This document shows positions 8,822-47,294 of a DNA stretch of 48,630 bases, piece by piece. The notes beneath the pieces were generated by a model that was not told the origin of the DNA, ran no database searches, and saw only the letters and a program-made list of their open reading frames with translations. The number at the start of each line of letters is the position of its first letter. Position 1 is the first letter of the stretch. Position numbers and translations under genes: made by a program. Origin of the DNA: a virus; IMG/VR virus record IMGVR_UViG_3300041411_000097, positions 1-48,630 of that record; one strand, 5' to 3'.

Positions 8822-9943
8822 TTAGTGAAGCATCGAAGGGTGAACGGTGTGGCGTGCTACCTCGCCGAACTCGCGGTGCAATACGACGCACTTCATGTTC
8901 TCCCGCGACCTCCAGCCGCCAGCAGTGGCGTAGGCATCACCAGGGGCTAGCGTGTTGAACGTCTCGACTGTGCAGCCTGGATACTCCTTCTTGCTCTCGT
9001 GGTGAACGTGACCAGTCCACCATGCCCGATGCTCTGTGCGGCCCCATGCTTGCGGTTGATCGGCAGCCATTACTTGGCCTAGCTTGTCAGCCTTGCACGA
9101 GTGCCCGTGATGCGTGCCAACGAGGTTCTTACCAAACTCAAAGTAGCTGAACAGGGCAGGACTCGTATCTACAGTCACACGAGGCTCGTTTGCGTAGATG
9201 TGATCCAGCGCAATCGATAGCCACAGAGCGCCAGTCTCATCATGGTTTCCGGGGACGTTGATGATATGCACCGTCTTGTGCTTTGTAAGCGCAGTCTCGA
9301 TGCACTGACGGATAACCTTGACCAGTACGCGCACCATCTTCGCGTAGCGACTGTCTGCATCCAAGTGGTGGCCGCTACGTGGTGTTACAGCAGCCATGGA
9401 ATCGTAATGCGCTGCATCCCCAAGGTTTACGATTGTGCAGCTCTCAGTGCGTGGTGCGGCCTCTACTAGCGCAGCCATTGCGCCGCAGTGCATGCGTTCG
9501 GCGATGCCCAAATCCCAGCTCTTGCCGCACTCTTCTGACCAGATGTACTCGCCGATGTGAGGATCGCCGATTGGATAGCACGCCATCAGGTCAGGCAGAA
9601 ACTCGCCGGCATATGCACGAGGCACTAGAACTGGCAGATCCTCCTTTAATGCCTGGCACGCCTCTACCATCATTTCGTAGCGGCGCTCGTTGTCTGCGCT
9701 GGTCTTAACCCACTGTCCAGACAGCTCGCCGTCGCGGTTGTAGTAAGAGCTGACACCTTTTACCTTGTAGCCGTCGGGACACTGCTTGGTCATGTCATGG
9801 CTAGGACTGTAGCCCGAGAGCGCAAGCCTAGCCTTCCATCGCCGCATAGTCCGCTCATGAACCCCTAGCGCCTCAGCCATAGCTGCGTTGGTGCCGAACA
9901 TCCCGACCACTTCCTTTACACGCTGCTCATCATATTGCTGCAT
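8822..9943 (-). CDS. Metallophosphoesterase with N-terminal HTH
   Basis: A 373-residue protein. Residues 1-45 form an HTH-like DNA-binding segment (MAEALGVHERTMRRWK). The rest is a calcineurin-like phosphoesterase: GDPHIG at 126-131, NLGDAAH at 173-179, PGNHDE at 231-236, GTHHGH at 276-281 and GHVHHES at 311-317 supply the expected metal ligands. The family includes nucleases such as Mre11/SbcD and nucleotide phosphatases. The HTH suggests a DNA-directed activity. It sits among early genes, just before the 8.8-kb promoter. Confidence 0.85.
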   Translation of the reverse strand: MQQYDEQRVKEVVGMFGTNAAMAEALGVHERTMRRWKARLALSGYSPSHDMTKQCPDGYKVKGVSSYYNRDGELSGQWVKTSADNERRYEMMVEACQALKEDLPVLVPRAYAGEFLPDLMACYPIGDPHIGEYIWSEECGKSWDLGIAERMHCGAMAALVEAAPRTESCTIVNLGDAAHYDSMAAVTPRSGHHLDADSRYAKMVRVLVKVIRQCIETALTKHKTVHIINVPGNHDETGALWLSIALDHIYANEPRVTVDTSPALFSYFEFGKNLVGTHHGHSCKADKLGQVMAADQPQAWGRTEHRAWWTGHVHHESKKEYPGCTVETFNTLAPGDAYATAGGWRSRENMKCVVLHREFGEVARHTVHPSMLH

Positions 9944-10009
9944 TGTGCCGCTCCGTATTTCAATAATTGTGCTGATTCAACGCACTGCTGAAATCCATTA
10001 TGCAATGAA

Positions 10010-10030
10010 AAGGCCCTGAATCCGGGCCTT
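10010..10030 (-). terminator. Hairpin terminator between early sub-operons
   Basis: AAGGCCC / GGGCCTT stem with a 7-base loop. On the minus strand it is followed by a short TTTT, on the plus strand by GATTGAATTTTT. Probably a partial terminator separating the 10.0-13.2 kb genes from the metallophosphoesterase. Confidence 0.65.
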
Positions 10031-19131: not shown

Positions 19132-19301
19132 AGCTTGCCCTCAAGGTAATCGGAAAGCTTCTTGATCGTTTTGTACTGCGGGTTCTGCTCCGGCTCATTT
19201 GCGATGCGCCACATCATAGAGGGGTGAATCCCCGTCTCCCTGGCTGCTTCAGACAGGTTCGTTCCCTTCAGTTTCTCTTGGATCTCTGGAAGCGTTAGCA
19301 T
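19128..19301 (-). CDS. Small HTH regulator, Cro-like, 57 aa
   Basis: Start at 19301 by an AAAGG SD. The segment LSEAARETGIHPSMMWRIANE (about 16-36) is a Cro/CI-type helix-turn-helix. The C-terminal helix may dimerise. It has a TATGAT -10 and an operator-like palindrome where the -35 should be. It is the best candidate for the protein that recognises the dispersed palindromes and would control its own operon. That pairing is inference. Confidence 0.75.
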   Translation of the reverse strand: MLTLPEIQEKLKGTNLSEAARETGIHPSMMWRIANEPEQNPQYKTIKKLSDYLEGKL

Positions 19302-19334
19302 TCGACACCTTTGCGTTATGACTTGAGAGTGAAG

Positions 19335-19370
19335 ATCATACCACAAACTAAAAACGATTCTCCGGAGAAC
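19335..19370 (-). promoter_or_regulatory. Promoter (TATGAT) and operator-like site, copy 4
   Basis: A TATGAT -10 box (19335-19340) is preceded at the -35 position by the palindrome ATTCTCCGGAGAAC (19357-19370). No TTGACA-like -35 is visible, so a protein bound at the palindrome might activate here or block weak transcription. It feeds the HTH gene and the replication operon. Confidence 0.65.
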
Positions 19371-19421
19371 ACTTAGATTTTGATAGCTATAAAACGTAGC
19401 CCGCTTATTCCTAATTCGTCT

Positions 19422-19449
19422 TTGACGCCGGCCATGGGTCAGCTAGCCT
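19422..19449 (+). promoter_or_regulatory. Promoter TTGACG-N16-TAGCCT for the recombination operon
   Basis: Plus-strand promoter about 90 bases upstream of the ATG at 19541. The leader then contains a G/C hairpin (CAGGGG / CCCCTG, about 19462-19492) without a U tract. Confidence 0.6.
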
Positions 19450-19540
19450 TACAAACAGGCAGGGGCAAACGCCACTAGCGGCGCCCCCTGTCCTGAGGAT
19501 TACAGCATAGGAAGCTTTTGACTATTACGAGGCAACGATC

Positions 19541-40908: not shown

Positions 40909-41120
40909 TACGATTCCTCCATCATGTAGCATGGGTCAGCATCAGGCCAGCCGTATAGCTTCACGTCTTTATCCCAATCAGATTCGGCGCGGGAGAATGT
41001 GCGATTCTGCACGCAATAGCCACAGCTTCCATGATGACGGCATCCACCAGCGGAATACTGGAATACGCCGTCACGCACGGTATCGCTACTTCTGCGCTTA
41101 GCACGCAACGTCCTAGCCAT
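40908..41120 (-). CDS. Small Cys/His-containing head-tail region protein, 70 aa
   Basis: TAATG-coupled start with a GGAAG SD. Basic N-terminus (RTLRAKRRSS), GGCRHHGSCGYC cluster and an acidic end. May bind a metal. Morphogenetic by position only. Confidence 0.58.
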   Translation of the reverse strand: MARTLRAKRRSSDTVRDGVFQYSAGGCRHHGSCGYCVQNRTFSRAESDWDKDVKLYGWPDADPCYMMEES

Positions 41121-41509
41121 TAACAGCACTTCCCGCCAGTAGAAACCCATAGACCGGCACTAGCGCCAGGCTCAGGCGGAATCACTGAGCTGGTACAGCC
41201 AGAAGTGTCCAGCGTATTAAGAAGAGAACGCAGAGAGCGATACCGGTCAACAAAAGAGCCCCAACGAAAAGACTGAGAAGCACCAGACGGAGCAGTTTGC
41301 GAGCTAATCTGACGATCCGCATTCACGTACCCCGTTAAGCCGAGCAGATACAGGTAGATTAGCGTCTGCGTTGCCTCTGGATAACCGGCACCATCTAAGC
41401 ACGGCTGAATTACTTCGACAGAATCAATCCAAAGCTGCAAGATGAAGTCAGGCGGAACCGGAATGCCGTACGCCAGAAAGTAAGCCTTAATTTGCTCGAT
41501 ACTAGGCAT
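41120..41509 (-). CDS. Head-tail adaptor-like protein, 129 aa
   Basis: N-terminal helical bundle (PSIEQIKAYFLAYGIPVPPD, then a Tyr/Leu-rich helix) like small adaptor proteins that bind the portal. The C-terminus is unusual, ending in GGKCC. Confidence 0.65.
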   Translation of the reverse strand: MPSIEQIKAYFLAYGIPVPPDFILQLWIDSVEVIQPCLDGAGYPEATQTLIYLYLLGLTGYVNADRQISSQTAPSGASQSFRWGSFVDRYRSLRSLLNTLDTSGCTSSVIPPEPGASAGLWVSTGGKCC

Positions 41510-41808
41510 CAGCGATCCTTAATCTTCAAGTAAATAGACCTAACAGCCGTGCGACCTTCTGTTGTGGTGATTGCGCAGGTTACGTATGCGGTAGTGCCGT
41601 TCGTGCCACCAGACACCCATGCAGTTGCGGATGTTGTTGTATTGCTGAACGAATCGACCACAACGCCAACAGGCTCGAACACTACAGAGGCAATCGTATC
41701 AGTGATATCAGCCAGATATGCAGACCAATCGAACGTGTAATCCAGAACCTCTTCAGGATCTTTCACAATCGTAGGCTTATCCGGGCCTCCAGTGTATGTC
41801 TCTGTCAT
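41509..41808 (-). CDS. Putative virion decoration/adaptor protein, 99 aa
   Basis: Beta-rich: LDYTFDWSAYLADITDTIAS and ATAWVSGGTNGTTAYVTC are widely found in small phage structural proteins of Ig-like fold. Overlaps the repeat protein gene by four bases. Confidence 0.65.
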   Translation of the reverse strand: MTETYTGGPDKPTIVKDPEEVLDYTFDWSAYLADITDTIASVVFEPVGVVVDSFSNTTTSATAWVSGGTNGTTAYVTCAITTTEGRTAVRSIYLKIKDR

Positions 41809-43370
41809 TCTGCGATATTCCTATTCTGAGGCTCTGGAGCTACTGTTCTGTTCTGCGCGACCAGTGTTTGCTGTCTGCGCTGAGGCTCTAAGGCTACAAC
41901 TCTTGACTGGCTAATCTGCGCTGACGATCTGTTCTGCGAATCTATTGCCAGGCTGCGAACTTGCGCACCAATAAATAGTGTGCGTTCTGGTGATGGCGTT
42001 AATTCTCCACCTACAGAAACTGATGCGGACATTATATCAGCAGCGACAATCGATTCTGACTCTGCGGATATTGCAGTTGCTGATTCAGACTCAGAAGAGT
42101 CGTCGAATTCCTGATTGGCTGCTTCAGCTGTAATTGATACAGTTCCGACTGACAGCGGCGAGTCATCACCAGTCACGGCAGACAACGACGAGTCAACCGC
42201 AACAGCTGATGACGATTGAGCCTGATCGTCAGCAAGCTGAGCAGACAACGCCCCCGATGACCCAACTCCAGCGCTAGAAGATACGCTATCAGCCTGCACA
42301 GGCAGCGAAGACGAAGCAGCAATAGATGAGCCGGCATGAGCGCTTATCAAGTCGCCAGCGTTGGTTGTGGAAGAGATAGAAAATATCGCAGCAAGTGCCT
42401 GCGCTGATACCGAGTCACCTTGTAGCGTGATCGATGCCTCTGCGCTGACCGAGGCTGTCTGCGAGGCGGTTGCAGATATCGAATCACCAGCCAGCGAGAC
42501 AGACGACTGTGCGGACACTTTAACTACAGACGCAGAAGACGCTGAGTCATTCTGAATCGACAGCGAGCTACTGGCAGACACGCCGATAGCTGAAGATCCT
42601 GAAGCCGAATCATTCTGCGCCGTAATGGCGGATTGCGTAGATACGGCAACAACCGAGGCAGACGAAGCGGTATCGGCAGCCAGAGTCAGCACAACCGTTG
42701 CGCCAATGTCAGTGCTTGGCGTGCCGAATGTCAGAGTGTCAGCGCTGAAGCTAAGAAACGAGGCGTGATCAGTAACGACGACGTTTGACGTCAATGTTTC
42801 TGTGGTGCCGGATGCCCACACGTCGCCGGTATAGCTTGTTGCCGCTGCCTGCGTATGGAACTGCCATATCTCGCAGATGATCACGTCACCAGCGAGCGCG
42901 CTTACGGTTGATGTGCTTACGGTAGAGGCGCTGTTTGAGCGCTCAGAGTTTGCAGCTCCAGGCTCTACGCTGCCAGTCATTGCCAGACAGTCGCCAATCG
43001 TGCCGACCTTTGTGCCGGTGGACGGACGCCAGACATAGACGTTGCACCGTAAATCAGACCCGAAGTTCATACTCAGGTTAGATTCGCGGTTAGCAACGTT
43101 GATTGTTACGGTGTTCGAACCACCACCAACACTCTGAGCGGTATTCAGTGTGTCAGATGCGAAGTGCGCACAGAAGGCCCGCTGCAAAGAGGTGTTTGCA
43201 AGGCTTGATCCGGCGAGGGATACCTGCGCTCCACCCTTGGTAGTGCGCATCGTGTACAGATTTGACGCGCCAGTGAGCGACCAGCTAGGCGTCAGAGACG
43301 ACTGTTCTCCAGTGGGAAATGTGCCGCTTAGAGAATTACCTATCCCTATAAGGTATAGCTTGGTCGCCAT
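41805..43370 (-). CDS. Virion protein with ten 21-residue repeats
   Basis: A 521-residue protein. Residues 1-230 are a beta-rich structural domain (LYLIGIGNSLSGTFPTG at the start). Residues about 233-444 consist of ten tandem Ser/Ala-rich repeats, each opening with Asp, nine of 21 residues and one of 23. The last 75 residues hold Q-N-R/E-P-Q units (LEPQRRQQTLVAQNR) typical of some phage structural proteins. Probably a head fibre or decoration protein. Function not known. Confidence 0.72.
   Translation of the reverse strand: MATKLYLIGIGNSLSGTFPTGEQSSLTPSWSLTGASNLYTMRTTKGGAQVSLAGSSLANTSLQRAFCAHFASDTLNTAQSVGGGSNTVTINVANRESNLSMNFGSDLRCNVYVWRPSTGTKVGTIGDCLAMTGSVEPGAANSERSNSASTVSTSTVSALAGDVIICEIWQFHTQAAATSYTGDVWASGTTETLTSNVVVTDHASFLSFSADTLTFGTPSTDIGATVVLTLAADTASSASVVAVSTQSAITAQNDSASGSSAIGVSASSSLSIQNDSASSASVVKVSAQSSVSLAGDSISATASQTASVSAEASITLQGDSVSAQALAAIFSISSTTNAGDLISAHAGSSIAASSSLPVQADSVSSSAGVGSSGALSAQLADDQAQSSSAVAVDSSLSAVTGDDSPLSVGTVSITAEAANQEFDDSSESESATAISAESESIVAADIMSASVSVGGELTPSPERTLFIGAQVRSLAIDSQNRSSAQISQSRVVALEPQRRQQTLVAQNRTVAPEPQNRNIAE
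42039..42674 (-). repeat. Diverged 63-bp tandem coding repeats
   Basis: The DNA encodes the ten repeats of the preceding entry, about 63 bases per unit. Units share a D-S-x-S ... S-A-x-S-S-x-S pattern but their nucleotide sequences have diverged, so the array is old or has been selected for protein pattern rather than recently amplified. Confidence 0.75.
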
Positions 43371-43381
43371 AACGCATTTCC

Positions 43382-43780
43382 TTATGCGTTACCGGTCGTC
43401 AGCGAGAAGGAGTTGACGGTTACGACTTGGGAGACGGCAATGCTGGTGTTGTCGAGCGACATATCACCGCTACCGAGGCCGCAAGTGCCTTGAGCGTGCG
43501 CAGTTGTGCCAGCAGTATCGACGATGCGGAAATAGCCAGCGGTACCAGCAGCAGCGCCAGTGCCAGACCATGTGCCGGTCTTAGCCTTAGCGCCAGCAGA
43601 AGCAGCCGACATCCAATCAGACGGCAGCGCCATCTCAACCAGCAGCGTACCCGTAGCAGCAGCCGCACAGTTAGCCGGAACAGAGCCGGTATAGATTCGC
43701 AGCTTGGCCGAAGTACCGGCAGCAGTTTCGAATGCGTCAAGACGTGCGTTGTTCACTGCTACCGAGTATTGGAGTGTCAT
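43382..43780 (-). CDS. Putative virion structural protein, 132 aa
   Basis: Contains LRIYTGSVPANCAAAATGTLL and YFRIVDTAGTTAHAQGTCG, a pattern frequent in small phage structural proteins between head and fibre genes. Beta-rich. Last late gene before the phaZ cassette. Role unknown. Confidence 0.68.
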   Translation of the reverse strand: MTLQYSVAVNNARLDAFETAAGTSAKLRIYTGSVPANCAAAATGTLLVEMALPSDWMSAASAGAKAKTGTWSGTGAAAGTAGYFRIVDTAGTTAHAQGTCGLGSGDMSLDNTSIAVSQVVTVNSFSLTTGNA

Positions 43781-43824
43781 TTTTCAGGCCTGGAAAATAG
43801 TTTCCCATATTTTAGCACGGGCTA

Positions 43825-43853
43825 TTGACGTAGAATCTGCGAGGGAATAGCCT
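43825..43853 (+). promoter_or_regulatory. Promoter TTGACG-N17-TAGCCT for the phaZ cassette
   Basis: Plus-strand promoter ahead of the 48-residue gene and phaZ, pointing against the late operon. Its -35 and -10 equal those of the 19.4-kb early promoter, hinting at early expression of the cassette. Confidence 0.62.
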
Positions 43854-43886
43854 ACGAATCACGCAACAAAACCAAAGGAAAACGAC

Positions 43887-44033
43887 ATGACATTCACCGT
43901 AAACAAAGCCCGTAACACCTTCACCGTAACCAGCGGCGAAATGATCATCGGCAGCTTCAAGACCGAACAGGAAGCTCAAGCCGAAGCGGATCGCATGACA
44001 GCAGAATACGAACGCGTCCTGAGTTTCCTGTAA
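43887..44033 (+). CDS. Small acidic protein upstream of phaZ, 48 aa
   Basis: AAAGGA SD. Beta-hairpin-like start (FTVNKARNTFTVTSGEMIIG) and a helical acidic end (EQEAQAEADRMTAEYE), the form of small single-sheet proteins common in phage genomes. It begins the cassette that continues with phaZ. Function unknown. Confidence 0.68.
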   Translation: MTFTVNKARNTFTVTSGEMIIGSFKTEQEAQAEADRMTAEYERVLSFL

Positions 44034-44059
44034 TCCTGCCGACACACAAGGGAATGACA

Positions 44060-44887
44060 ATGAGCTGCTTAACGGAAATAAAAACAACACCATTCGTTTA
44101 TCGCACAGTCATTATCGACGGACAGACAATCCGCACGGCTGTACGTCCTGGTAAATCAACCATTACGCCGCTACTGATATTCAACGGTATCGGCGCATCA
44201 CTGGAGCTTGTATTTCCATTAGTAGCTGCGCTTGATCCGGATCTTGAGGTGATTGCGTTCGACGTGCCTGGCGTTGGTGGATCGGCAACACCTCTGTTGC
44301 CGTACACCTTCAGCAGCCTAGGACGACTCGTAACCAGAATGCTTGATGTGCTGGATTACGACGAGGTAACAGTTGCGGGAGTCTCATGGGGCGGATTCCT
44401 TGCTCAGCAGTTCGCCTATGACCATCCGACGCGCTGCACTAAGCTCATCCTAGCCGCCACCTCTTCAGGAGTAACGATGGTTCCGCCGTCGATGAAGGTT
44501 CTGATGCTGATGGCTAGCCCTGAGCGCTACACGAACCCTGAGCATATGGCTGCGATTGCTCCGGAGATCTACGGCGGGTCGTTTCGGAATAATCCAGAGC
44601 TATGCGCAAGTTACGCCAGCAAAATGAAGGCGCCAACCTCGCAACTCGGATACAAGCTCCAAGGTATGGCGGTCTGGTGGTGGTCGTCCGCATTCTGGCT
44701 GCACAAGATCAAGCAGCCGACTCTTGTCCTAGCTGGAAATGACGATCCGATCATTCCGCTAGTCAACATGGAATTCATCGCCAGACGCATTCCTAACGCT
44801 GAGATGCACATTATTGACGACGGGCATTTGTTTCTGGTGACTAAGGCTAAGGAGATTTCGCCGAAAATAATGAAATTTCTTGCTTGA
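44060..44887 (+). CDS. phaZ: Medium-chain PHA depolymerase, alpha/beta hydrolase
   Basis: A 275-residue intracellular esterase that splits polyhydroxyalkanoate granules into hydroxy-fatty acids. DLEVIAFDVPGVGGS and RTAVRPGKS match Pseudomonas PhaZ as I remember it. Ser109 in GVSWGG is the nucleophile, Asp228 in GNDDP and His256 in DDGHLF complete the triad. Start 44060 fits the AAGGGA SD (six-base gap); ATG 44054 is too close. It ends about ten residues short of bacterial PhaZ. It is flanked by its own promoter and lies against the late strand: an auxiliary metabolic gene. Confidence 0.9.
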   Translation: MSCLTEIKTTPFVYRTVIIDGQTIRTAVRPGKSTITPLLIFNGIGASLELVFPLVAALDPDLEVIAFDVPGVGGSATPLLPYTFSSLGRLVTRMLDVLDYDEVTVAGVSWGGFLAQQFAYDHPTRCTKLILAATSSGVTMVPPSMKVLMLMASPERYTNPEHMAAIAPEIYGGSFRNNPELCASYASKMKAPTSQLGYKLQGMAVWWWSSAFWLHKIKQPTLVLAGNDDPIIPLVNMEFIARRIPNAEMHIIDDGHLFLVTKAKEISPKIMKFLA

Positions 44888-44912
44888 CGTGGATTGATTG
44901 CAGGTCTAGTCT
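44884..44912 (+). promoter_or_regulatory. Promoter TTGACG-N17-TAGTCT after phaZ
   Basis: Its -35 overlaps the phaZ stop codon. Drives the leader peptide, a terminator and the Ser-rich protein gene. Its GCAGGTC just upstream of the -10 recurs in the 8.8-kb promoter. Confidence 0.65.
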
Positions 44913-44973
44913 CTGAATTAAGCAAGACAAGCGCCCTGAACATCAGGCCCACAAACAAACCGAGGACACGACC

Positions 44974-45006
44974 ATGCTATGGCTCCTGCTGCTTATCCTG
45001 ATCTGA
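44974..45006 (+). CDS. 10-aa hydrophobic leader peptide
   Basis: MLWLLLLILI, preceded by a GAGG SD and followed six bases later by an intrinsic terminator. This is the layout of an attenuation leader. The peptide could also act alone in the membrane. Length makes it tentative. Confidence 0.4.
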   Translation: MLWLLLLILI

Positions 45007-45011
45007 TTCAC

Positions 45012-45034
45012 AGGCCCTTGACTGGGCCTTTTTA
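45012..45034 (+). terminator. Terminator/attenuator before the Ser-rich gene
   Basis: AGGCCC / GGGCCT stem with a 6-base loop followed by TTTTTA. A second AGGCCC at about 44945 could compete for the 3' arm, so the structure may be conditional. Confidence 0.72.
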
Positions 45035-45058
45035 CTGCCAATAACTGAGGGTAAAGAA

Positions 45059-45406
45059 ATGTTCAAATGGCTAGCATCACTATTCAAGCGGAAACAACCA
45101 GAACATAAACCATCGATAAGTGAGCGGATGGCTGCTCGCGATATGTACGATGGCGCTTTTGCAGCTCCTTTGCGCACAAGCAAGGCGCGGGCATCTTCGC
45201 CAACCCGTCACGCTACCTCTTCGCGTAGTCAGCCTGATGACGTGTTGTCTAACCCGCTGAATCCAATGAGTCCGATTGGCTTCAATAGTCCTGTCTACTA
45301 CGATTCGACGCCGTCTTACTCGTCGAGCTCTTCATGTGACAGCGGTAGCAGCTATAGTTCTAGCGACAGCAGCAGCTCTTCATGCAGCAGTAGTGGTGGC
45401 GATTAA
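45059..45406 (+). CDS. Ser/Cys low-complexity protein, 115 aa
   Basis: GAGGGTAAAG SD. Amphipathic basic N-terminus (FKWLASLFKRKQ) that may touch the membrane, a middle with NPLNPMSPIGFNSPVYY, and a C-terminal 30 residues made almost wholly of Ser, Asp, Gly and Cys. Similar tails occur in bacterial proteins of unknown function. Accessory gene with its own promoter and terminators. Confidence 0.68.
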   Translation: MFKWLASLFKRKQPEHKPSISERMAARDMYDGAFAAPLRTSKARASSPTRHATSSRSQPDDVLSNPLNPMSPIGFNSPVYYDSTPSYSSSSSCDSGSSYSSSDSSSSSCSSSGGD

Positions 45407-45422
45407 ATCTCGCGCACAAAAC

Positions 45423-45449
45423 AAAGCCCTCCAAGTGAGGGCTTTTTTA
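45423..45449 (+). terminator. Terminator between Ser-rich gene and converging late gene
   Basis: AGCCCTC / GAGGGCT stem with a 5-base loop followed by TTTTTT. Ends the plus-strand cassette just before the minus-strand stop at 45450. Confidence 0.9.
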
Positions 45450-45617
45450 TTACTTCCGCTTTACCTTTGGCTTAGGACTCGCCACCTCAAGCACCTTCAC
45501 GGCTTCATCAGGCAGCGACACACACTTACCTCTAAGCCATTGCGGGCATGAGTCGGCTTCTACGATGTCGCCAGCCTCAAGGCCGTTCGTTGGATATGTG
45601 ACGCGGAATCTGGCCAT
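45450..45617 (-). CDS. Small structural-region protein, 55 aa
   Basis: TAATG-coupled to the preceding gene. Begins ARFRVTYPTNGLEAGDIVEAD, with a basic C-terminus (PKPKVKRK). Found after capsid genes; small proteins of this kind may be completion or decoration factors. Function unknown. Confidence 0.65.
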   Translation of the reverse strand: MARFRVTYPTNGLEAGDIVEADSCPQWLRGKCVSLPDEAVKVLEVASPKPKVKRK

Positions 45618-45793
45618 TACTCTTTATCCTTTGGCGGGCGACCACGGCGAGGGGCTTCTACTTCTACCGATTCAACTTCGATAGCCTTGTTAACCAGCGT
45701 TACAGGCAAGGACTCAGCTTTGATACGCGCACCAACCTCTTGCCGAACGCCGTCTACGTAGTAACCGCCACTAGTAATCTCGAACTCTTTCAT
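45617..45793 (-). CDS. Small structural-region protein, 58 aa
   Basis: Start at 45793 by a GGAGTGA SD. Short beta-rich N-terminus and a basic C-terminus RRGRPPKDKE resembling an AT-hook. Sits between capsid terminator and the next small gene. Function unknown. Confidence 0.62.
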   Translation of the reverse strand: MKEFEITSGGYYVDGVRQEVGARIKAESLPVTLVNKAIEVESVEVEAPRRGRPPKDKE

Positions 45794-45804
45794 TTTCACT
45801 CCAA

Positions 45805-45830
45805 TAAAAAAGGGGCCCGCTAAGGCCCCC
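45805..45830 (-). terminator. Terminator after the major capsid gene
   Basis: GGGGCC / GGCCCC stem with a 6-base loop followed by TTTTTT on the minus strand, 17 bases after the capsid stop. Partial termination here would give capsid messages in excess over downstream genes. Confidence 0.88.
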
Positions 45831-45846
45831 ATTCTAACTCAGGCGG

Positions 45847-46857
45847 TTATGCGCCTTTAACGAACTGCGCTACGCCGGTCGAACCGTTCGCATCACGCTT
45901 GAACTGTGGAGCAACTGCGGTCATGATCTGGAAGCTGTACTCGTCGGTGAAGTTTTTACGTTCAATCGGCATAGTAGTGATCGGCATCGCAGTCAGCAAC
46001 TCAACCACACGGCGTTCTTTAACGACGGCGAGGATTTCGTTAACTGGAACAGCAGTGGATGGAACGATGGACACGATACCTGGAATCGCCATCAGACGAG
46101 CCAGAATAGTGTTCTGAGGCGCGGCGGTCACGTAATCGTTAACCGATGCAGCGAACCAGTCACCGTAGTTCAGGTAGACGGTAGCGCCGCCGTAGTAGTT
46201 CTCGCCTTGCAGGCCGATCAGTACACGCTTAAGAGCTTCAACCCACTGAGCGCCGGTAGCAGTTACCAAGTCGACGTTACCGAAGTTACCGGTAGCGCGG
46301 CCTGGAGCAGTACGCAGACCGTAGATTTGGTTGCCGGCAACGTTGAACTTGGTGTCACCGTTAATTACCAGGTCTTCCAATTTTTCAACAATTTTTCTGT
46401 TGCCGTTGTCACGAGTAGCAGCGTCCAGATACTGCCAGCCGCCATCTTGACGAGCAGCTTCAACATCGCGCCAGCCGAAGGTGAAGGTGGTGTCGTAGAT
46501 TGGAACTGGAGTACCTTCGTAGTCGATAACTGGAGCATCGGCCTTCGCACGGCTGCGACCATCCATCGAGCTGTTCACTTCGCCAGAGTCAGTGACTTTG
46601 GAGAAGTAGTGCAGGACTTTGCCAATCGGCACGTTGCGTTGCAGGCTAGCCAAGTCAGTGAACACACCCAGCGCCGCACGCTGCAAGGTGATCAGGTCGT
46701 TGTCGTAGGTAGCCCAAGCATCACGAGGGATGGTGTAGGCGTTACCAATCATCTCGCCTTCGCTATCACGCGCAAGACGCTCTTGACGGGCGTTATGAGC
46801 GCGACGCTTGCCAATAACGGCAGCCTCTTGCTCTTTGTTAAAAGTCAGAATAGGCAT
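45847..46857 (-). CDS. Major capsid protein (DUF2184-type, HK97 fold)
   Basis: A 336-residue protein. IPRDAWATYDNDLITLQRAALGVFTDLASLQR near 43-75 and WRDVEAARQDGGWQYLDAATRDN match the DUF2184 capsid family that assembles the icosahedral head. It follows the protease-scaffold and a small decoration gene, as usual. Confidence 0.87.
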   Translation of the reverse strand: MPILTFNKEQEAAVIGKRRAHNARQERLARDSEGEMIGNAYTIPRDAWATYDNDLITLQRAALGVFTDLASLQRNVPIGKVLHYFSKVTDSGEVNSSMDGRSRAKADAPVIDYEGTPVPIYDTTFTFGWRDVEAARQDGGWQYLDAATRDNGNRKIVEKLEDLVINGDTKFNVAGNQIYGLRTAPGRATGNFGNVDLVTATGAQWVEALKRVLIGLQGENYYGGATVYLNYGDWFAASVNDYVTAAPQNTILARLMAIPGIVSIVPSTAVPVNEILAVVKERRVVELLTAMPITTMPIERKNFTDEYSFQIMTAVAPQFKRDANGSTGVAQFVKGA

Positions 46858-47294
46858 TATGCAGGCACCACGTAGGAGTTAGCGAGGATACGAACGTCAC
46901 CAAGACCGTTTGCACTGATTGCGCGAGATGCGGCCTCGTCGAATACAGCTACAGCGACTTCACCGGTTACTGCGGCTTTGAACTGGCCGGCAGCGATGCT
47001 GAGGACGGCACCCGGCGCGTAGGTAGCAGCGGCAAAGCGAACGTTGAATTCGTACTGCGGAACAGGCTTGAATGCTTCGCCAGTTTCGCCGGACGGAACA
47101 GCGGTATCCACGGTTTCGCCGATGTATGCACGGTTGTGCATGATGAAGTAATCGACCTTGGAGGTTGCGGCCAACTGAAACACGCCAGCGGTCACGGTAA
47201 CAGCCAGACCAGGCAGAATGCTTGCGCCAGTCTTCAGAGTGCGCGAATCAGGCTGTGCGAGATGCACAGGACCACGCCAGATAACGTTAGCCAT
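46857..47294 (-). CDS. Head decoration/minor capsid protein, 145 aa
   Basis: Beta-rich protein (ILPGLAVTVTAG and YEFNVRFAAATYAPGAVLS) between scaffold-protease and major capsid, where head stabilisation proteins are encoded. One-base overlaps on both sides. Name from position and character. Confidence 0.72.
   Translation of the reverse strand: MANVIWRGPVHLAQPDSRTLKTGASILPGLAVTVTAGVFQLAATSKVDYFIMHNRAYIGETVDTAVPSGETGEAFKPVPQYEFNVRFAAATYAPGAVLSIAAGQFKAAVTGEVAVAVFDEAASRAISANGLGDVRILANSYVVPA

Follow-up and report, generated by a model that had tools for sequence, protein, structure and literature searches.

A predicted mcl-type polyhydroxyalkanoate depolymerase encoded in an accessory cassette of a long-tailed phage genome

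The window, by which the whole stretch of 48,630 nucleotides analysed here is meant, carries at 44060-44887 a gene, phaZ, whose product is supported by family assignment as a phage-borne intracellular polyhydroxyalkanoate (PHA) depolymerase of the mcl type. The reading we prefer, with a probability of about 0.6, is that this depolymerase is borne on a moron-type cassette and would cleave host PHA in infection to fuel phage replication. Many bacteria store PHA as a main reserve of carbon and energy, which they mobilise by means of PhaZ.

The phaZ gene and the family of its product

The phaZ open reading frame is real, encodes 275 aa without an internal stop and has two in-frame ATG codons, at 44054 and 44060. 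The second is the better start, because an AAGGGA motif is located six bases upstream and because it is the sole start kept in several relatives. The gene and its motif are as follows.

44060-44887 (alternative start 44054), plus strand: phaZ, mcl-type intracellular PHA depolymerase, as assigned by TIGR02240, alignment, tree and structure model
44048-44053, plus strand: AAGGGA, Shine-Dalgarno-like motif of phaZ, from the sequence

Over residues 11-275 the protein scores 408.9 bits against TIGR02240, the NCBI equivalog for poly(3-hydroxyalkanoate) depolymerase, and exceeds the cut-off of 250.6 bits by about 158 bits, while it stays far under the cut-off of all other equivalogs listed. The separation is wide, since sub-cut-off matches to TIGR02240 in four bacterial genomes reach only 20-87 bits. 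The labels scl-PHA depolymerase (NF050089; 61.3 bits, cut-off 300) and PcaD (107 bits, cut-off 256) were rejected, as were haloalkane dehalogenase and macrolide esterase with scores under their equivalog cut-offs. The best Pseudomonas PhaZ proteins are 64-68% identical over nearly the full length, and no hydrophobic leader is visible in the sequence of the window protein, which fits an intracellular PhaZ without signal peptide.

The catalytic triad is Ser109-Asp229-His256 in the 275-aa numbering, with Ser109 within the lipase box GVSWGG (G-x-S-x-G), and is invariant in 24 aligned phage and bacterial PhaZ sequences; it is equivalent to the triad S102/D221/H248 of the characterised P. chlororaphis PhaZ (PMC10003648). 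The AlphaFold2 model (pLDDT 86.8, pTM 0.88) displays the canonical alpha/beta-hydrolase fold, and the PDB entries that match it best are alpha/beta hydrolases with E-values down to 3.6e-21, among them the acyl-homoserine lactone (AHL)-degrading esterase 5egn, the phospholipase 6i8w and the Bacillus thuringiensis PhaZ 8ynv. The last, an scl-PHB depolymerase, is alike in fold (TM about 0.75) and in its PHA depolymerase role, but is only about 20% identical, and the scl model fails for the window protein. A library of predicted viral structures returned distant hydrolases only, mostly from giant viruses.

The sequence-only reading had proposed an intact alpha/beta hydrolase of the Pseudomonas intracellular mcl-PHA depolymerase family that starts at 44060 and has its Ser-Asp-His triad in place, and had named a profile search and a phylogeny as the way to check it. 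These points are borne out: the frame is intact and the model has the hydrolase fold, the upstream motif and the starts of relatives favour 44060 over 44054, and the triad is unbroken on alignment. Likewise, the best family in the profile search is TIGR02240 and not an unrelated esterase, the protein groups with PhaZ and not with other hydrolases in the phylogeny described below, and equivalog model, phylogeny and confident structure model agree on the family.

The phage genome and its hypervariable cargo site

The window corresponds to a single viral record, carries a direct terminal repeat of 114 bp and encodes portal, head morphogenesis, large and small terminase, capsid, head decoration, tape measure, major tail, J-like and tail-spike-like proteins together with a DnaB helicase and recombination genes. 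Because of the terminal repeat and this full structural and replication gene set it reads as a complete long-tailed phage genome, in which phaZ, by its predicted product, is a gene of cellular metabolism and a candidate auxiliary metabolic gene. With respect to the host, the J protein has its nearest relatives in Pseudomonas phages (51-58%), and the helicase resembles those of Leptolyngbya phages and of P. syringae phages to about the same extent (54-55%). No relative of the capsid gene was found in 300 Pseudomonas genomes, which is a weak host clue as the search had no positive control, and no tRNA genes were found that could serve as a host clue. We infer that the host is likely Pseudomonas or a close relative that stores mcl-PHA.

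Two further regions of the genome may be mentioned. The divergent intergenic region at 19132-19540, which separates leftward replication from rightward recombination genes, is probably an early control region. The product of 41805-43370, a protein of 521 aa in which Ser, Ala and repeated segments abound, has no Pfam or PHROG match and is replaced by a different protein of 281-287 aa at the equivalent position of several sister phages.

The gene phaZ is located on the plus strand, while the surrounding capsid and head-tail/tail genes are all on the minus strand. The features around it are the following.

43382-43780, minus strand: virion structural gene left of the cargo site (phrog_3758)
43823-43864, plus strand: 42-bp conserved element before the phaZ cassette, possibly a promoter (TTGACG at 43825), from conservation
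43887-44033, plus strand: 48-aa microprotein with the C-terminus YERVLSFL, directly upstream of phaZ, from conservation
45012-45029, plus strand: terminator-like hairpin downstream of phaZ, from the sequence
45059-45406, plus strand: 115-aa Ser-rich open reading frame, second cargo gene (weak DUF7206 match, phrog_13684)
45423-45445, no strand assigned: bidirectional terminator-like hairpin at the right edge of the cargo region, from the sequence
45847-46857, minus strand: major capsid protein gene right of the cargo site (phrog_771, DUF6260, match to annotated major capsid protein genes)

The same gene is found in 18 further viral contigs with nine metagenome IDs, at 82-97% identity and, wherever the position can be verified, at the same site. 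As gene and surroundings recur in contigs of other metagenomes, the presence of phaZ in the phage is neither chance nor chimera. A search with the capsid protein gave 36 loci, 31 of which cover the cargo site (some contigs being fragments or near-duplicates); phaZ is present in 11/31 and lacking in 20/31, and is therefore not essential. In the sister phage L127 the match to the window is unbroken over 41116-44033 and picks up again at 44958-45004 and 45627-47173; exactly phaZ is therefore lacking, and the gap opens directly downstream of the microprotein, while in L128 and L135 the site comprises about 200 bp. Alternative cargo includes TerB (L120), a Band_7/SPFH protein (L133, near-identical in L138) and T5orf172/MUG113-type proteins (L137, and beside phaZ in L125), together with several small open reading frames without assignment, mostly antisense to the structural genes. 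Window positions 43781-45846 and their equivalents in L111-L143 can, from these comparisons, be described as a hypervariable cargo site of the phage genus.

The 42-bp element occurs once in the window, and exact matches to its 30-bp core were found in 15 IMG/VR stretches, all on contigs with this phaZ. No sigma-70 consensus site is present before the cassette, the element itself included, and a sigma-70 promoter was rejected for this position. The microprotein, for which neither Pfam nor the cultivated phages gave a match, is kept in sister phages with and without phaZ (present in L111, L120, L127, L132, L134 and L139) and also lies, at 9653-9799, upstream of phaZ in L021; over the stretch compared, this 54-kb record has little else in common with the window. 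Between microprotein and phaZ this record has a small open reading frame (9840-10010) resembling ribosome modulation factor, with 26.6 bits at a Pfam cut-off of 27.9. The 115-aa open reading frame reaches 24.1 bits against DUF7206, below the cut-off of 25.6, and is common to few sister phages (present in L117); the bidirectional hairpin is also kept close to the empty sites in L128 and L135. Cumulatively, of the features by which morons are recognised, absence from syntenic relatives and opposite orientation are seen and terminators are found, while the promoter is represented by the conserved element only. An accessory, moron-type cassette with candidate signals of its own is the best explanation for this arrangement.

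Spread and ancestry of viral phaZ

A profile scan of IMG/VR recovered PhaZ relatives at 51 viral loci, the contigs measuring up to 307 kb, and TIGR02240 has the best E-value of any family for 29/29 viral sequences scanned, the window included. The 27 phaZ records outside the genus of the window (9-307 kb, several of them fragments) encode a recognisable large terminase in 14/27 and a tyrosine integrase in 4/27 cases. As phaC, phaD, phaF and hslU were found near none of the tested loci outside the genus, these loci are not host pha clusters. The window gene itself lies outside a pha cluster (phaC1-phaZ-phaC2-phaD), a context that is usual in Pseudomonas though not definitional.

In the tree, a viral PhaZ clade (support 99/96) stands beside the chromosomal Pseudomonas PhaZ (99/97), with a joint node of 96/95; the very divergent copy L242, which an earlier tree had left unplaced, was omitted from this final tree. 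Two megaplasmid proteins, of P. serbica (L030) and P. silesiensis pPL1 (L275), nest inside the viral clade next to the group of the window (96/91). They are thus of viral type, but are encoded on plasmids of about 1.1 Mb, and P. serbica possesses its copy in addition to a canonical PhaZ. With these two copies inside, the tree does not support a strictly monophyletic group of all viral PhaZ; a topology that holds the viral sequences apart from them is disfavoured yet not rejected (p-AU 0.062). The simplest reading of the tree would be that phaZ was captured long ago from a Pseudomonas-like lineage, then spread among phages and moved to or from megaplasmids, while repeated capture from unsampled bacteria is possible.

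Among 15 phage phaZ copies dN/dS is 0.018-0.163 with a median of 0.068 (105 pairs), which indicates that the gene is under strong purifying selection and kept by selection in phages. Its GC content of 51.6% nearly equals that of the genome (51.5%) and compares with 62-70% in four Pseudomonas phaZ genes. Low dN/dS and phage-like GC suggest that phaZ is functional and long resident in phages, and mark it as a long-established phage gene and not a stray host gene. A recent transfer from present Pseudomonas chromosomes was rejected on account of GC content, a divergence of about 33% and the separate clade. Two of the 18 sister copies look damaged, with a stop codon in L015 and a short in-frame deletion near residue 67 in L014; an assembly error is possible in both.

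The window protein resembles the PhaZ of P. putida and P. chlororaphis in equivalog match, triad, lipase box and overall identity, but differs in being phage-borne, in its clade, its lower GC content and its location outside phaC1-phaZ-phaC2, as well as in a changed cap and the lack of a C-terminal tail. Phage-borne alpha/beta hydrolases are also known as the esterase/lipase of mycobacteriophage TM4 and relatives (PHROG 789), but these are about 30% identical to the window protein over less than half of its length, and the match to PHROG 789 is far inferior to that to TIGR02240. Among 50,697 records of cultivated phages, no protein above about 32% identity was found, and a nucleotide search of cultivated phages with the 1.65-kb region gave no match. 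Phage auxiliary genes that serve PHA synthesis, phaC and phbB among them, have been reported in a paper the text of which is without phaZ or a depolymerase (PMC12013262); these genes likewise touch host PHA metabolism, but on the side of synthesis. No paper combining phage auxiliary genes with PHA depolymerase, phaZ or K05973 came up in full-text searches of open-licence papers, where absence is no proof. We thus found no earlier description of phaZ in phages in the open-licence literature, phage phaC having already been reported, and these literature and phage-database searches agree with the statement of the sequence-only reading that no established phage role is on record.

Role in infection and alternative explanations

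According to the preferred reading, the cassette would have its own transcription during infection, independent of the late genes, and PhaZ, as its family membership suggests, would hydrolyse the polyester of host PHA granules via a Ser-His-Asp mechanism to (R)-3-hydroxyalkanoates. Host enzymes would subsequently activate these to acyl-CoA, and beta-oxidation would provide acetyl-CoA and reducing power for phage replication. Of the original PhaZ proposal as a whole, the enzyme family and the triad hold, and the fuel role we continue to infer. An anti-phage-defence role was rejected, as no PADLOC match was found.

The same family, triad and tree evidence is equally at hand for a depolymerase that serves granule removal or host control, by clearing crowding granules or by disturbing the PHA cycle and granule-bound proteins. 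In favour of granule removal, the annotated genes of the window include no further gene recognisable as acting on fatty acids or PHA, but host beta-oxidation of the products would need no further phage gene. Nothing separates this role from the fuel role, and we consider it unlikely.

To a similarly low degree, phaZ may encode a PhaZ-derived esterase or lactonase that has come to act on other compounds, for example acyl-homoserine lactones, host lipids or a toxic ester. Alpha/beta hydrolases switch substrate easily, 5egn and 6i8w are structural neighbours, and on alignment the cap region of the window clade reads GYKLQGMAVWWWSS where chromosomal PhaZ has GYYWQLFAG-GWTS. Because of these changed cap residues and the absence from the window clade of the short C-terminal tail of chromosomal PhaZ, the substrate may have shifted. 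Nevertheless, the wide margin over the TIGR02240 cut-off with no other cut-off passed, the best match of all 29 viral members scanned to this family and the position of the viral clade as sister to functional Pseudomonas PhaZ argue for a PHA depolymerase.

The moron-like position and orientation of phaZ, along with the tyrosine integrase in some of the other phaZ-bearing viral records, would also suit a lysogenic-conversion gene, which is expressed from a prophage and alters the PHA turnover of the lysogen. This is improbable, however, as the large open reading frames of the window are all accounted for without an integrase, six records of its genus have no tyrosine integrase, and the search of Pseudomonas genomes for the capsid gene, run without positive control, found no relative. 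It is known that host genes contaminate collections of viral contigs, but host DNA misassembled or misbinned with the phage contig, or a recent neutral pick-up, was rejected as barely credible in view of conserved junctions in independent metagenomes, a dN/dS of 0.07, phage-like GC, the distinct viral clade and no pha cluster nearby.

Beyond the window, we lean slightly towards a dedicated viral branch of PHA depolymerases, which would be exchanged among unrelated tailed phages with and without integrase, shared with Pseudomonas megaplasmids, and mobilise the carbon reserve of PHA-storing bacteria in infection. Photosynthesis and nucleotide auxiliary genes are known in phages, and viral PhaZ, if the preferred reading is true, would be their storage-polymer counterpart. 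Burst size is then predicted to depend on host PHA content and on phaZ, for which the sister phages that naturally lack the gene are ready comparisons. With a PhaZ of their own, viruses would draw on storage granules to meet the cost of replicating in starved cells with ample reserves, with a bearing on soil carbon flow and on phage losses in PHA-producing cultures.
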